Assembly (NCBI GenBank): GCA_021816895.1
Contig: JAKAWW010000001.1
Coordinates: forward strand, 372,001-436,000
Origin: Microcaldota archaeon
Lineage (GTDB): Archaea > Micrarchaeota > Micrarchaeia > Micrarchaeales > Micrarchaeaceae
Direction: 5' to 3'
Length of the DNA: 64,000 nucleotides
The notes beneath the pieces are model-generated. The model had not been told where the DNA came from and searched no databases. It was given only the letters and a program-made list of their open reading frames with translations. This document shows, piece by piece, positions 3,151 to 41,767 of the stretch (its first letter is position 1; each line of letters starts with the position of its first letter). The position numbers were made by a program, and so were the translations under genes.

Positions 3151-3375
3151 ATGATACTTTGTGAAAGATGTAAGAGGGAGACATACCGCTACGAAACCTG
3201 CAACTACTGTGGCAGGAAGGTGTGCTACGACTGCATAAAGAGCAGTCGCAGGTACCATAAGACAGTGAGGCTCGTAATCTGCAAGGACTGCTGGGGAGAC
3301 ATGAAAAAGAGGAGAGCCTTCAAGAACAACAGCGCAGAAGTTCTTGAGGCAAAGGCGCAGGCTGCTACTGCATAA
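3151..3375 (+). CDS. Small two-site zinc-binding (treble-clef/FYVE-like) protein
   Basis: 74 residues with four CxxC pairs: CERC (4-7), CNYC (17-20), CYDC (25-28) and CKDC (44-47). This spacing suggests two interleaved zinc sites as in FYVE/RING-like or treble-clef domains. The C-terminal 25 residues are basic, then alanine-rich. SD AAGGTGT lies just upstream of the ATG, and ileS begins 37 bases downstream on the same strand, so co-transcription is likely. Similar short zinc proteins occur in many archaea, usually uncharacterised; RNA or protein binding would be a guess. Confidence 0.75.
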   Translation: MILCERCKRETYRYETCNYCGRKVCYDCIKSSRRYHKTVRLVICKDCWGDMKKRRAFKNNSAEVLEAKAQAATA

Positions 3376-3412
3376 AGCTTGCCGTGCTTGCAATTAGGCT
3401 CGTGGTGCGTCA

Positions 3413-6400
3413 ATGGACATGAAGGCTTTTGAAGACTCGGTGCTCAGGTACTGGCTTGAAAAAAACGTAAACGCGAGCTTAAAGCAGAAGAACAAGGGCA
3501 ATAAAAAGTTCTATTTCCTTGACGGTCCGCCCTATGCTTCTGGCGAGCCAGGGTTCTACCATGCGTGGGTGGTAGTAACAAAAGACCTTGTGCTGCGCTA
3601 CAAGCGCTATCGCGGCTTTGATGTCCATGACAGGGCAGGCTTTGATGTGCATGGGTTGCCTATAGAGGTCAAGGTGGAAAAGCAGCTGAACCTTGCCTCA
3701 AAGAAGGACATACAGGAGCGCATAGGGGTTGCAAACTTCATAGATAAATGCAAGAGCTTTGCCGATGAACAGGTAAAGCTTGCAACGGGCACGTTCCTTA
3801 GGTATGGATCTTCGATGGATTTCAAGGACATGTACGTGCCGCACAGGAAGGAATACATGGAAAGAAGCTGGGCCATATTCAAGAAGATATATGACAAAAA
3901 GCTCGTATATGAAGGCAGGGAGCCTCTTGCCTATTGCCCGCACTGCGAAACCGTGCTTTCGCAAGGCCCTGAAATAGAATACAGCATGGAGAACGATCCC
4001 TCAATATTCATAAAATTCAAGGTAAAGGAAGGAACTTCTAATGTATCACTGCCTGACAATACCTACCTGGTAGTATGGACAACTACACCATGGACCTTGG
4101 TGTCAAATGTCGCTATAGCGGTAAATCCAAAGGAGCTTTATGTAGTCGCAGGCACAGGTAGCGAGAACTTCATAATTGCAAAAAGCAGGCTTGACGAATT
4201 CGCTTCCGCAACTGGCATCAACCTTGTCGTGGCTGGCGAATTTTATGGCAGCGAGCTTGAAGGAACTCAATACTTGGGCTTGTTTGGCAACGATGTGCCT
4301 GCTCAATCAAGAATAAGCAAACATCATATTGTCATAACTAGCGAGAGCTTCGTATCTGCTTCGGAAGGCACAGGCTTGCTGCATGTCGCCCCTGGCCACG
4401 GCCCCGAAGACTTTAAGCTCGGCAGGGAGCACAAGATGCCCGTGTTGTCTCCTGTAGATGAGCATGCGCGCTACAATGCAGAAGCCGGCATCTTCGCAAA
4501 TCTGCAGGTGCCTTCTGAGGCCAATAAGGCAGTGCTTGACTATCTCAAGAAGGGCGGGGCGCTCATACTGCATGGCACAGTGAGCCACAGCTACCCGCAC
4601 TGCTGGCGCTGCGGCAGCAAGCTCATCTATGTGGCCACGAAGCAGTACTACATAAACGTCGGCAAGATCAAGGGCAAGATGCTTGCGCAAAACAAAAAGG
4701 TAAAGTGGTATCCTGGCTATTCGTCAAAATGGTTCGAAGACGCGATAAACAGCTCTCCCGACTGGTGCATCTCAAGGCAGAGGTACTGGGGCATACCTAT
4801 ACCATTGTGGGAGTGCGAAAAGTGCGGCAATGAAAAGGTTGTAGGATCAGCAAATGAGCTTGAAGAACTTTCAGGCCAGGAGCAAGAGCTCAGCGACCTG
4901 CACAGGCAGCACGTTGATGGAATTGAAATTAAATGCGACAAGTGTGGAGGCACTATGCGCAGGATACCAGACATATTTGATGTATGGTACGATTCTGGCG
5001 TAGCCCATACAGCTAGCCTTTCCGATGATGAGTTCGCAAAGCTCTTTCCTGCAGACTGGATATCGGAAAGCCTAGACCAGTTGCGCGGTTGGTTCACTAC
5101 TTTGCTAAGGACTGGCGTAGCGCTATATGGCAAAACACCATTCCTAAGCGTTAGCATTGGCGGCATGGTAAAGGACGAGACGGGCCAGGAAATGCACAGG
5201 CACCTCGGCAATATCATCAGCGCAAACGAGCTGCTCGAGATATCGACTGCAGACGCTTTCAGGCTGTGGAGCCAAAGCCATCCCAGGTGGGAGGAGCTGC
5301 GGCTTAAGAAGGAGGAGCTCATTGAGGCAAACAGCAACATGATTACCATATACAACATAGCGGAACTTGCAAAGGAGCTTTTCCAGCGCGCAGGCATAGA
5401 TGCAAAGAGCATCTTAAGGCCTCCGGCAGGCCTTGAGCTTGAGGAGCAGTGGATCGTGTCGAGGCTCAACAGCCTAATACTCGATTCCACAGTGCACCTT
5501 GACAGGTACGAGATAGACAGCATGGTAAGGAATGTAAGGGAATTCCTTCTCGAAGACGTGAGCAGGTTCTACCTGAAGTTTGCCAAGCAACGCGCCGAGC
5601 AGTATTCTGCGCGTACCGTAAAGAGGGTCGCTACACTGCTTGCATATGTGCTGAGAAATGCGCTTGTAATATCCTCAATAGTGGTGCCATTTGCTGCCGA
5701 GCACATATACCAGGAGCTTTTCAGCAGCGGCGAAAGCATATTCATGAACAAATGGCCCAAGCCAATGAAGAGCAAGATAAGCACAGAGATAGAGGAAAAA
5801 TTCAAGCTGCTCAAGCTTGTCTGCAATGCAGCTCTGTCGGTTAGGGAGCAAAAGGGCGCCAAGCTCAGGTGGCCCATCAGCGAGGTAATAGTCAAGACTA
5901 ACGATGAATCGGTGCTTGAAGCGGTAAGCGAGCTCGCACCGTTCATAGAGATGTATGCAAATGCAAAGATGCTCAAGACTTCAGAAGTCGCAACATCAAA
6001 GAAGCTTATAAAGCCCCTATTCGCGAAATTGGGCCCGTCTTTCAAGGCTGATGCTCCGATGGTCGCGGAAGAGCTGTCAAGGCAGGATGCCGACACAGTA
6101 AACAACGAAATAGCTGCAAATGGATTTTATGAGCTTCATACAGGCAAGGGTGTTTTCAACATCGAAGCCGGACATTTTGCGGTGGTGGAAAATACCGAAG
6201 CTGAAAGCGGGACTTCTGTGCAGTACAACAATTCTTCAATAATAGTTGACATTAACGCCGAGCAGACAGAAGAGCTGCGCAAGGAGCTTGTCAAAAGGGA
6301 ATTCATAAGGCGCATACAGATGATGAGAAAGGAGATGAAGCTCAGCAAGCCCGAAAAGGTTGACCTATATGCAAAAATGCCCGTGAAGTATGCTGAGCTT

Positions 6401-37591: not shown

Positions 37592-37618
37592 AATGCATGC
37601 ATTGATGCATGCATTTTT
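37592..37618. terminator. Bidirectional hairpin terminator
   Basis: AATGCATGCAT-TG-ATGCATGCATT is a perfect 11-bp inverted repeat followed by a T run, in the 41-bp gap between convergent genes (37576 and 37618). Confidence 0.7.
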
Positions 37619-38349
37619 CATTCGAACGCCATCTTGACCAGCTTGTTGCCTACTTCCTCTCCCGCTGTTATCTCCGGCATTATCATCCTGTGCGCTCCTG
37701 CCATTCCTAACTTGGGTATGCTGCCCTCGCTGCTTACCCTAGATACAATCTTTATCCTGGAATTGGCCGTCTTTGCAGTCATAGTTATAAGCGTGTTGCT
37801 TATGTCATTCTCATCGCATACTATTACGTTATCTGCGCTGTCTATGTTGGCGGCCTTGAATAGCTCCACGCTTCTTTCATCTCCTATTATTGGTATCATG
37901 CCTTTGCGATAGACATGTTCAAAATCGTGCTTTGACCTGCAAACTACGACCACCTGCTTGCCCCTACCTTTTAGTTCAGTGGCAGTTTCCATCGCAAAGC
38001 CATTGAATGGCACCACTATGGAATGGTGCTGCAGCTTCTTTATCCTTATGAGCATCCTGCGCTCCCTTATGTTGATCTTTGTTATGGCGCTGAAGAACGC
38101 GCTTGCAAAAACAACAGTAATAAGCGCAAATACTATCGTATCGAAAAATGCAGATGCGAGCACAAAGATGTTCTCGGCCACATTGAAGCTTACGATTGCA
38201 TAGCCTATCTCCAATGAGCCGAATATGTTCTCTATCAGTGCGGTCTGCAGTCTGACGCCTGCAAGCAGCGTGAGTATTATAGATAGTAAAAATAGCAGTG
38301 CCGCAATACCTAGCAGCTCATACCTGCTCCTGCGTGATGAAGCCATCAA
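37618..38349 (-). CDS. TrkA-N (RCK) domain membrane protein A
   Basis: 243 residues: two or three membrane helices (LLGIAALLFLLSIILTLLAG and FDTIVFALITVVFASAFFSA), then a Rossmann-type RCK_N domain. The first nucleotide-binding loop is eroded (IVVPFNGFAMETATEL for GxGxxG), while the rest (GDERSVELFKAANIDSADNV, KLGMAGAHRMIMPEITAGEE) is conserved. There is no TVGYG-type potassium selectivity filter. It overlaps protein B by four bases. Likely a regulatory or transport subunit in a three-gene RCK operon. Confidence 0.75.
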   Translation of the reverse strand: MMASSRRSRYELLGIAALLFLLSIILTLLAGVRLQTALIENIFGSLEIGYAIVSFNVAENIFVLASAFFDTIVFALITVVFASAFFSAITKINIRERRMLIRIKKLQHHSIVVPFNGFAMETATELKGRGKQVVVVCRSKHDFEHVYRKGMIPIIGDERSVELFKAANIDSADNVIVCDENDISNTLITMTAKTANSRIKIVSRVSSEGSIPKLGMAGAHRMIMPEITAGEEVGNKLVKMAFE

Positions 38350-39113
38350 GACACCTTTGCTAAAATAAAGTCGCCCATATCAAGTCCTGCTAGTACCTCA
38401 GGAACTATACACAGTTCTGCGCCAGCCCTATGCATCTTCGGTATGGTGGATTCTTCCTTTGCCTTGGCAGCAATGCGCAACTCTGGATAGAGATGATGGG
38501 CAGTCACTATGCCCAAAAGGTTTGTGTATTCATCGTCAGAAACGAAGACAGCGGCACGTGCAGTTTCCAGTTTTGCCTTTTTCAGCACTTCATCGCTTGT
38601 GAAGTCACCGGCTATGACCTTATATCCTATGTCAGAAAGCAGATCGACCTTATCCTGCGATTTCTCTATTATTATGAATTTGGCGCCTCGCTTTTGCATG
38701 TCTACGCATAGCCTTTCGGCAAGCTGCGAATATCCACAGAGCACAATATGCCCTCTTATGCTCCTCGCAGCTATGCTGCCCATCTTGGTGCGTATGTCTA
38801 TTGACATTAGTGCATTTATAAATGCGGCTATGACGAAACCCACAAGAACCGCTTTTGCGAGCCCGTCCATCACAAACACCGCTAAAGTGGAGTCAAACTG
38901 CGGTGCCGAAAGCGAGGAGAGATTCAAGCTGCTAGCGCCAGTTATCGTGCTGTAATCGAAAAGCGTGGAGAGCGTGAAGTACGCTGCTATGTACGTGTTT
39001 CCTGTAATTGTATAAAGGTAGTACACCGAAGCTGAAAGCACGATCATTACCGCTGCCACAACGAGTACAATGAGCCTCGTAGTGACCTCTTCTGATGGGC
39101 TGAGCATGGCCAT
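38346..39113 (-). CDS. TrkA-N (RCK) domain channel-like protein B without selectivity filter
   Basis: 255 residues: two helices flank a pore-like loop YFTLSTLFDYSTITGASS where a potassium channel would have TTVGYGD; then the RCK_N domain begins GHIVLCGYSQLAERLC with a modified glycine loop, FIIIEKSQDK, VIAGDFTSDEVLKKAKLETA. The fold suggests a two-helix channel whose filter has changed. Only four bases separate it from the soluble RCK gene upstream. Confidence 0.75.
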   Translation of the reverse strand: MAMLSPSEEVTTRLIVLVVAAVMIVLSASVYYLYTITGNTYIAAYFTLSTLFDYSTITGASSLNLSSLSAPQFDSTLAVFVMDGLAKAVLVGFVIAAFINALMSIDIRTKMGSIAARSIRGHIVLCGYSQLAERLCVDMQKRGAKFIIIEKSQDKVDLLSDIGYKVIAGDFTSDEVLKKAKLETARAAVFVSDDEYTNLLGIVTAHHLYPELRIAAKAKEESTIPKMHRAGAELCIVPEVLAGLDMGDFILAKVS

Positions 39114-39117
39114 GCTA

Positions 39118-39543
39118 TCATTTCAACAATTCATCTGCAATCTCCTTGCTTGCGGCTTTCTGCGGCATTACTACATAGTCTGCGCCGGCTTCTATGAGCT
39201 TGTTCCTTACAAATTCATCATTAGCCCTGGCAGCTATGAATATGTTCTTGTTGAGGTCCCTTGCGGTTAGCACCGTAAAGAGGTTTTTCGCGTCGTCGTC
39301 CAGCGCTATTGCTATCGCCTTTGCCTTTTCTATGCCTGCAAGCCTTAGGGTTCTAGAGCGCGTGGCGTCACCCTCTATGCAGTCATGGCCGTATTCTTTC
39401 ACCAATGTCGCAACCTTAGCATCGCTGTCTATCACTATAAATTTTACGTTGTGCTCTGCAAGCACATCGACAATCTTCTGGCCAAGGATGCCGAAGCCGC
39501 ATACAATCACATGGCCGCTCATGCCTTTCTCCTTCTCTTGCAT
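39118..39543 (-). CDS. Soluble TrkA-N (RCK) protein C
   Basis: 141 residues, one canonical RCK_N domain: GHVIVCGFGILGQKIVDVLA, FIVIDSDAKVA, CIEGDATRSRTLRLAGIEKA, ADYVVMPQKAASKEIADEL. The first residues MQEKEKG are identical to those of HemA at 40927 because both starts lie in the 158-bp duplicated segment. AAGGTG SD is in the 14-base gap after tRNA-Gln, so RNase Z cleavage of the tRNA would create the mRNA 5' end. It is first in the three-gene RCK operon. Confidence 0.85.
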   Translation of the reverse strand: MQEKEKGMSGHVIVCGFGILGQKIVDVLAEHNVKFIVIDSDAKVATLVKEYGHDCIEGDATRSRTLRLAGIEKAKAIAIALDDDAKNLFTVLTARDLNKNIFIAARANDEFVRNKLIEAGADYVVMPQKAASKEIADELLK

Positions 39544-39684
39544 AAAAGCACCTTAGATAGCTCCAGCCAGATTCGAACTGATGTCAACAGGTCCAGAGCC
39601 TGCTATCCTTGACCACTAGACGATGGAGCTATTGCATAATACTATTTGTGTGAAGGTTTTTTATATGCTTGTTAAGAACAATCC
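39527..39684. repeat. 158-bp direct repeat, left copy
   Basis: Differs from 40911-41068 at only three positions (two in the tRNA T-stem, one upstream of the promoter). It contains a tRNA promoter, tRNA-Gln, SD and the first codons of a gene. The two copies bracket hemA. Confidence 0.9.
39558..39630 (-). tRNA. tRNA-Gln(CUG), copy with damaged T-stem
   Basis: 73 bases, identical to the right copy except positions 49-50: the T-stem is ATCAG against CTGGC, giving an A-C mismatch and a U-G pair where the other copy has GCCAG/CTGGC. Anticodon loop CTCTGGA gives anticodon CUG. The promoter is intact, so it is transcribed but may fold or process less well. It could be a decaying duplicate. Confidence 0.75.
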
Positions 39685-39694
39685 ATCCCTTGCC

Positions 39695-40927
39695 TCAAGT
39701 GACTTTCTTAACTTTCTTAGCTTCATGTCTAGAAAAGTTCTCGTTCAATATCGTCTCCATATTAGTCACTGTTTCCGAAGACCTGATATCCTTCGCATTC
39801 TTTATGCCATTGATAACGAATCCAAGGAGTTTGTTCCTGGTGGATTCAAGCCCCTTCCTTATTGTTTCAGAGTCAGCTCTTTCATTTGACTTACTTTCGA
39901 AGAACTTCATCTCTTCATCAATTATCTTGTTAGAGTACTCGAATATCTTCTTCAAGAGTTCATTCTTTTCAACACTCACCAGTTTTTTAGAAAATTTCTC
40001 AAACTCTGTATTCACAATTTTTAGGCTCTTTATGGCATAATCGCTCGCCTTGTCATTAATTGGGACAATTGATTCAGCTAGTGATTCCATGTTGACTATC
40101 TTTACACCCCTTGGAACATCACTTGACACATTTGGGGGAACCCCCAGGTCCAATACCGCCTTGATTTTTGACCTGGCAATATCGCTGCGTTTGAGCAAGA
40201 CTTCCCCAGATTTGGTTGCAGTGATAATAACTTCGTAAGACCTCCACTTCTTCCTGTCGAAATCCTCTATGGAAGCTCCGAAGGCCTTTGATATTTCCCT
40301 GGCCTTCTCAGGACTCCTGTTGCATATTGAAAACCTTGTACCATTTCTTGAAAGGAAGCTAGATATCTGGGTTCCGAGATCACCAGCACCTATTACCAGT
40401 ACCTTCTGCCCCGGCAGTATCTTTATCATGCTAAGTGCTTCACTTGCTATGCTCCTTGCACGTCTGCTGTTGCCATTTTCCCTCCTTGCCTTCCTTCCTA
40501 CTTCGAGGGACTTCTTCAGCACCTCATTGAGATTTGGACCAGATAAGTCCTTCTTCCTTGAGATCTCCCACGCCTTTTTTATCTGGGCTAGTATTTCATT
40601 TTCCCCAATAACCATTGAATCAAGGCCCGCCGATACGAGAAAGAGGTGCTTAATTGCATCAAGGCCGTGGACTACTGTGTATTTCAGTGATTTGTCATTT
40701 ATGTAGTCTTCAAGGAACTCTAACGTTTCCCTGTCTCCTGGAAAGAAATATATCTCAAACCTGTTGCATGTCCAGAGCACTAAGGCTTCCTTGATTCTTT
40801 CATTCTTCTTTATGTAATCATACACTTCATCAAGCTGGAATTCCTTGATTGTCGAGAAATATAACGAGCCTAGATCTCCGTAACTGACCTTTATAAGGAA
40901 GATATCCCCCTTCTCCTTCTCTTGCAT
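39695..40927 (-). CDS. hemA: Glutamyl-tRNA reductase, leader fused to duplicated segment
   Basis: 410 residues. Reduces glutamyl-tRNA-Glu to glutamate-1-semialdehyde, the first step of C5 tetrapyrrole synthesis. Catalytic Cys is in ALVLWTCNRFEIYF; then LFLVSAGLDSMVIGENEILA, AWEISRKKDLSGPNL, the NADPH domain VLVIGAGDLGTQISSFLSRN and NRSPEKAREISKAFG, and the C-terminal dimerisation helices. The N-terminus MQEKEKG is encoded in the 158-bp repeat and is the same as the TrkA protein's; native sequence seems to begin DIFLIKVSYGD. It is transcribed after tRNA-Gln with a 14-base gap carrying AAGGTG. No other heme gene is in the window. Confidence 0.9.
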   Translation of the reverse strand: MQEKEKGDIFLIKVSYGDLGSLYFSTIKEFQLDEVYDYIKKNERIKEALVLWTCNRFEIYFFPGDRETLEFLEDYINDKSLKYTVVHGLDAIKHLFLVSAGLDSMVIGENEILAQIKKAWEISRKKDLSGPNLNEVLKKSLEVGRKARRENGNSRRARSIASEALSMIKILPGQKVLVIGAGDLGTQISSFLSRNGTRFSICNRSPEKAREISKAFGASIEDFDRKKWRSYEVIITATKSGEVLLKRSDIARSKIKAVLDLGVPPNVSSDVPRGVKIVNMESLAESIVPINDKASDYAIKSLKIVNTEFEKFSKKLVSVEKNELLKKIFEYSNKIIDEEMKFFESKSNERADSETIRKGLESTRNKLLGFVINGIKNAKDIRSSETVTNMETILNENFSRHEAKKVKKVT

Positions 40928-41068
40928 AAAAGCACCTTAGATAGCTCCAGCCAGATTCGAACTGGCGTCAACAGGTCCAGAGCCTGCTATCCTTGACCAC
41001 TAGACGATGGAGCTATTGCATAATACTATTTGTGTGAAGGTTTTTTATATGCTTGTTAAGAATAATCC
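40911..41068. repeat. 158-bp direct repeat, right copy
   Basis: Same content and orientation as 39527-39684, offset by 1384 bp. The perfect T-stem of its tRNA suggests this copy is the functional one. Confidence 0.9.
40942..41014 (-). tRNA. tRNA-Gln(CUG)
   Basis: 73 bases: acceptor AGCTCCA/TGGAGCT with A73, anticodon stem GCAGG/CCTGT, loop CTCTGGA (anticodon CUG), T-arm GCCAG-TTCGAAT-CTGGC. The minus-strand TATA CATATAAAAAACC (about 41039-41051) lies upstream. No intron. Confidence 0.9.
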
Positions 41069-41071
41069 CTT

Positions 41072-41767
41072 ATGTTAAGGGATAATATCTCCAGAAGGGA
41101 GGAGATAAAAGATATTGTAATAGCGGATGCCGTGCTCATACTTGCATTCTCGCTTACCCTAGATGGGGGCATAGAGCACGCCGCGCCGTTTGCTGCTTTC
41201 GCCCAGCGCTTCGTATATCTGCTGCCCATTGTGGCTATGGGCGTAAGCCTCAGCTTTGTGCTGCATGAGCTTATGCACAAGTTCGTTGCAGAGCGCTATG
41301 GCGCCATAGCAGCGTTTCGCACCTCCCACATGGGCCTTTTGATAACGCTTGCCACTGGATTCTTCGGATTCCTGCTTGGCATACCTGGCGCCACAATGAT
41401 ATACACGAGCAAATTCACGCGCAAAGAAGAGGGTTTGGTGTCAATTGCAGGCCCGCTTACAAATTTTGTGGTTTTTGCTGCATTCCTTGTAGCGTTCTTG
41501 CTCATCAGGCCGCCGTTAGGCAGCTATCTCTACGAGATGTTCGCATTTACCATATTCATAAGCATCCTGCTCGCGTTTTTCAACATGCTTCCTGTGCCGC
41601 CACTGGATGGCAGCAAAGTGCTGCATTGGAATTCGCGCATATACCTGTTGACAATGGGCATAATATTTGTGCTGATGTTCGTGTTTACTGGCATACCTTT
41701 GGACAGCATAGTGCTGATGGTGTTCATCGCACTGATGTTTTCGCTGTTCTACAGAAACGTGCTGTGA
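41072..41767 (+). CDS. Site-2 protease-like M50 membrane metallopeptidase
   Basis: 231 residues with about five membrane helices. Zinc motif VLHELMHKFVAERYG (HELMH at 65-69) and the second site FNMLPVPPLDGSKVL (N-P-x-x-D-G). This arrangement is typical of the M50 family, which cuts substrates within the membrane and often releases anchored regulators. It begins just after the right 158-bp repeat. No obvious substrate gene next to it. Confidence 0.88.
   Translation: MLRDNISRREEIKDIVIADAVLILAFSLTLDGGIEHAAPFAAFAQRFVYLLPIVAMGVSLSFVLHELMHKFVAERYGAIAAFRTSHMGLLITLATGFFGFLLGIPGATMIYTSKFTRKEEGLVSIAGPLTNFVVFAAFLVAFLLIRPPLGSYLYEMFAFTIFISILLAFFNMLPVPPLDGSKVLHWNSRIYLLTMGIIFVLMFVFTGIPLDSIVLMVFIALMFSLFYRNVL

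Follow-up and report, generated by a model that had tools for sequence, protein, structure and literature searches.

Our analysis of a 64,000-base window from the genome of a Microcaldota archaeon (Micrarchaeota), taken from one contig of 928,770 bases (bases 372,001-436,000), revealed a foreign gene for glutamyl-tRNA reductase, hemA, which very probably was transferred by itself and inserted through microhomology, a resident tRNA leader being duplicated in the process. The arrangement is best read, on sequence evidence, as a natural promoter and start-codon capture accomplished without an integrase: the foreign gene is joined to a resident promoter and the breakpoints lie at the control region, transcription itself being predicted.

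On the minus strand, the locus runs from the divergent M50 peptidase gene (41072..41767, plus strand; Pfam PF02163, synteny in 15 relatives) through tRNA-Gln, hemA (39695..40927), a second tRNA-Gln and trkA, coding for a TrkA-N domain protein (39118..39543; Pfam TrkA_N 9.9e-31, synteny), to two further TrkA_N genes identified with Pfam downstream on the same strand (37618..39113). The M50 gene and trkA are the ancestral divergent and downstream neighbours of tRNA-Gln, respectively. An earlier note on this DNA had reported 158-bp direct repeats at 39527 and 40911, offset by 1384 bp and with three differences, and our repeat comparison confirmed them. The full pair covers 161 bp in each copy (39524-39684 and 40908-41068, spacing 1384 bp), and the core of 158 bp (39527-39684 and 40911-41068), which leaves off the differing edge base 39526, contains three mismatches, at 39581 (A/G), 39582 (T/C) and 39679 (C/T). 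The content ascribed to the repeats was likewise recovered with ARAGORN, Rfam and translation: each copy holds an AT-rich upstream region with TATAAAA, a tRNA-Gln(CUG), an AGGTG SD and the start codon of the next gene, and the start MQEKEKG is encoded in both. As also claimed, hemA is the sole gene between the copies, its stop codon standing 10 bp from the left repeat. Since transcription proceeds from right to left, the right copy (40911..41068, minus strand), situated at the ancestral M50 junction and carrying the start MQEKEK, now supplies the leader of hemA, as the left copy (39527..39684, minus strand) does for trkA.

Among spaced direct repeats of at least 60 bp within 8 kb in 464 kb of the genome (the window and 20 stretches), this pair is the most nearly identical and is therefore not a product of chance; the other spaced repeats were 75-92% alike and lay mostly inside repetitive or coding sequence. 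A 105-bp direct repeat (90%; 2657-2761 and 3331-3435 of stretch L085, 674 bp apart), which takes in the 3' end of a DUF488-like gene, represents a second, older local duplication. A 192-bp near-tandem duplication was observed within a small gene adjoining a tRNA-Gly (5796-6290 of L088), and a very long run of diverged repeats with a period of 99 bp (33 aa) in L100 and L101 (G000:C1, ~689,500-723,800) probably encodes one or more giant repeat proteins.

The 410-aa product of hemA contains the domains GlutR_N (PF05201, 8.2e-30), NAD-binding (PF01488, 8.6e-17) and GlutR_dimer (PF00745, 3.6e-6), all above cut-offs, and keeps the motifs TCNRFE (catalytic-cysteine motif TCNR.E), GLDSMVIGENEI (GLDSM..GE motif) and GAGDLG. 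Its best-scoring family was the NCBIfam equivalog TIGR01035, with 204.7 bits against a cut-off of 209.55. The nearest proteins in the genome collection belong to two Thermoplasmata, I-plasma (L031, 88% identity) and YP5.bin4 (L032, 87%), with DNA identities of 86 and 87%, respectively, and HemA of eight other genomes in the I-plasma genus was 72-74% identical. In the tree, the window HemA groups with I-plasma and YP5.bin4 with support of 100/100. The DNA alignment to these donor genomes spans hemA only and stops at both repeat edges. On the recipient side, any HemA match was present in 8 of 99 near-relative genomes and in 20 of the 301 genomes of the phylum (the window's own included), many of these matches comprising the NAD-binding domain only. 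The reductases of the recipient's relatives were at best 28-34% identical to the window HemA, on which ground an ancestral hemA in Micrarchaeota was rejected, and of the 301 genomes none besides the recipient's own carries a gene of the I-plasma type, no further match surpassing 34% over more than 100 residues. These comparisons identify hemA as foreign, acquired horizontally from a Thermoplasmatales lineage near I-plasma. The enzyme of that genus is 88% identical and has the same motifs; its gene, however, starts at TTG and in I-plasma and YP5.bin4 sits within a hemL-hemC-hemD-hemA-hemB run, whereas the window hemA is an orphan provided with the start of trkA.

The search for an empty site in relatives, proposed in the earlier note, revealed 15 loci, from relatives in the same family or order, in which M50 / tRNA-Gln / trkA follow one another and hemA is missing. 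The tRNA-Gln of the donor genomes is located on another contig than hemA and is just 81-83% identical to the window copies, for which reason co-import of the tRNA with hemA was rejected; the two window copies are 98% alike. Both tRNA-Gln repeats are native to the recipient and not imported. The 15 loci free of hemA, along with the position and the divergence of the donor tRNA-Gln, show that hemA arrived alone and that the repeat was duplicated within the lineage of the recipient. A one-gene insertion at a tRNA gene, the insert carrying no integrase, is supported, and the proposal that the arriving unit consisted of the tRNA-Gln leader plus hemA is not, the gene alone being foreign.

The same proposal had envisaged a circular or tandemly duplicated unit. 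Its placement of the insertion at the tRNA gene stands; a circular intermediate is conceivable though not required. The duplication is most plausibly a side effect of joining the insert at short shared sequences. Directly oriented 158-bp repeats are indeed the product expected of a single crossover, by which a circular or tandem unit of native tRNA-Gln leader and hemA would have been integrated through homologous recombination, for example from a sister strain already carrying the fusion. We consider this quite unlikely, as it only implies that the fusion arose in a different genome, and none carrying it was found among the 301 genomes of the phylum. Viral contigs, phage and plasmid records were rejected as carriers since they held no close relative: no viral contig carried hemA, and the phage and plasmid matches were all below 60% identity.

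At the 5' junction (40911..40927, minus strand), the trkA-derived start ATGCAAGAGAAGGAGAA is fused in frame to hemA, and GGAGAAAGGC is common to the recipient and both donors. The sequence here is ATGCAAGAGAAGGAGAAAGGC-ATG in trkA, TTGGAGAAAGGC-GGTATC in the two donors and ATGCAAGAGAAGGAGAAGGGG-GATATC in hemA of the window, the register being kept so that hemA begins with MQEKEKG of trkA. At the 3' junction (39679..39694, minus strand), AAGGGAT is followed by GGATTGTTC, with a 4-bp tandem of GGAT at the join. The sequence ATAAGGGATT is common to the I-plasma 3' junction and the native flank of the recipient that adjoins the right repeat on its right side; the sequences are TGAAATAAGGGATTTT in I-plasma, ACATAAGGGATTATTC in the native flank and TGAGGCAAGGGATGGATTGTTC in the window. 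Sequence common to I-plasma and the recipient amounts to 10 bp at each junction (chance ~1e-5 each at random positions), the 5' overlap being 6 bp if the donor already carried the window's variant and the 3' overlap being less certain, since YP5.bin4 has no common sequence there and the window join carries the extra 4 bp (GGAT).

Under microhomology-mediated insertion, a DNA piece of ~1.23 kb with hemA alone would have passed into the small archaeon from a member of the Thermoplasmatales related to I-plasma but not itself sequenced, of a lineage found together with Micrarchaeota in acid habitats. Joining would have occurred at short shared sequences, one at the trkA start and the other at a distance of ~160 bp, immediately upstream of the resident tRNA-Gln, with the donor ends meeting both sites in an order that copies the interval between them twice, either by template switching or by ends-in gap repair, which yield the same product with the same sequence. 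The promoter region, tRNA-Gln, SD and start codon would hence have been duplicated, hemA gaining the tRNA-Gln promoter and the trkA start codon in frame and trkA retaining its own set.

Three other explanations fit this structure less well. Short local duplications do occur elsewhere in the genome, and the tRNA leader might have been duplicated in tandem before hemA was inserted between the copies; such a sequence of events is very unlikely, as it requires two events whose breakpoints coincided by luck with both ends of hemA, and no tandem tRNA-Gln at the M50/trkA site was seen in the relatives compared. Donor-type organisms live in the same habitats (PMC5864196), and co-occurring Thermoplasmatales DNA could have been assembled with that of the Micrarchaeon into a chimera, which we regard as highly improbable given that two separate joins, one of them in frame, plus three differences between the copies would be needed inside a single contig of this length. 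An SSV/pNOB8-type integrative element that has shrunk to a single gene would share with the insert the tRNA gene target and the flanking direct repeats but is barely credible, because the insert has no integrase gene, the repeat extends beyond the tRNA, taking in the whole of it along with the promoter and the neighbour's start codon, and the foreign DNA ends at hemA itself. Elements of this type are known to duplicate part of the tRNA only.

The gap between tRNA-Gln and trkA in relatives ranges from 14 to about 1036 bp and holds varied cargo, which suggests a possible hot spot for insertions. In G007 (506-1390 of L043) it contains an HTH regulator resembling TrmB, and in G027 (503-1187 of L046) a PIN-domain-like gene preceded by a small partner in a VapBC-like pair; the names come from sequence reading, and the coordinates apply with trkA turned to the plus strand. 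A tRNA-Gln(CUG) split by ~20 bp in the D-arm region was observed just upstream of trkA in G023 (L065), and split matches were also present in G004, G011, G017, G021, G026, G029 and G038; the interruption resembles a non-canonical intron.

Two of the three differences between the copies fall in the T-stem of the trkA-side tRNA-Gln (39556..39631, minus strand; ARAGORN; Rfam 50.1 bits, one broken pair; MFE -22.2), where the two changes give ATCAG/CTGGC, with one mismatch and one wobble. The hemA-side tRNA-Gln (40940..41015, minus strand; ARAGORN; Rfam 60.1 bits; MFE -28.7) has an intact T-stem, GCCAG/CTGGC. As T-stem pairing is damaged in the trkA-side copy and kept in relatives, the hemA-side copy is probably the working tRNA, and the trkA-side copy is perhaps starting to decay.

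The suggestion that the event was recent is supported to the extent of fairly recent, since the copies differ by just 1.9%, a figure that presumes no gene conversion between them, as conversion would make the event look younger. Set against the 13% divergence of hemA from its known relatives, the insertion appears recent, and most of the hemA divergence probably arose in an unsampled donor lineage. The dN/dS on the window hemA branch was 0.12. Non-synonymous changes were in excess on this branch in comparison with the donor branches (36:56 vs 10:46 codons, Fisher p = 0.01), which would fit some relaxation, although the branch mixes time before and after the transfer. The intact reading frame is weak evidence, as we estimate that, at the divergence of the repeats, only ~12-15 changes would be expected in hemA since the insertion and that these would leave the frame free of stops about half the time.

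HemB was not found in the genome, with positives in relatives, and neither HemC nor CydA was found, with positive controls for both. HemL was not found either, the sole aminotransferase match in the genome being of the acetylornithine type. The failure to find HemB, HemC and HemL leaves HemA an orphan. Its active-site motifs are intact, and it most likely is, or was until recently, a functional glutamyl-tRNA reductase that lacks the steps downstream. A recent passenger that is being lost seems to us slightly more probable than a useful enzyme making GSA/ALA. It is unlikely, though conceivable, that the captured HemA acts alone, with Glu-tRNA(Glu) converted to glutamate-1-semialdehyde and further to 5-aminolevulinate without HemL and feeding host or local use, and that the insertion was locked in by selection, the tRNA behind the captured promoter now being the better copy. 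Heme synthesis is also absent from Mia14, another Micrarchaeon, though it was described with cytochrome bd (PMC5498576). HemC-family genes with frames of ~550-590 aa, twice the normal length, were observed in G001, G007, G012, G038, G052 and other relatives that yielded neither HemB nor HemA; their length suggests a fusion protein or another use.

Evolution experiments with bacteria have shown that promoter capture can activate transferred genes (Li and Bock 2019, described in PMC11111574); a promoterless transferred gene reportedly gains expression on being joined to a resident promoter, at times with duplication and microhomology at the join. The hemA case differs in being natural and archaeal, in using the promoter of a tRNA gene and a resident start codon in frame, and in a leader duplication that spares the resident gene. 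Transfer from Thermoplasmatales to Micrarchaeota is likewise already known, from Mia14 and Cuniculiplasma (PMC5498576) and from M. harzensis (PMC8975820), with the same donor group, recipient group and ecological link; those cases, however, are an integrase-bearing island or inferences from protein trees, whereas hemA is a one-gene insertion whose junctions can be read. The combination of a duplicated tRNA leader with a resident start codon taken in frame was not found described in the open-access literature.

The known hosts of such tiny archaea belong to the donor's group. The hemA locus would represent a gene passing to a DPANN archaeon from a lineage of the host type, caught with both junctions still readable. 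It suggests how one gene can come in with no mobile element to carry it and stand behind a promoter from the start, through duplication of a tRNA leader and a borrowed start codon, and it offers a concrete test case for the role of an orphan first enzyme of heme synthesis in a reduced genome.
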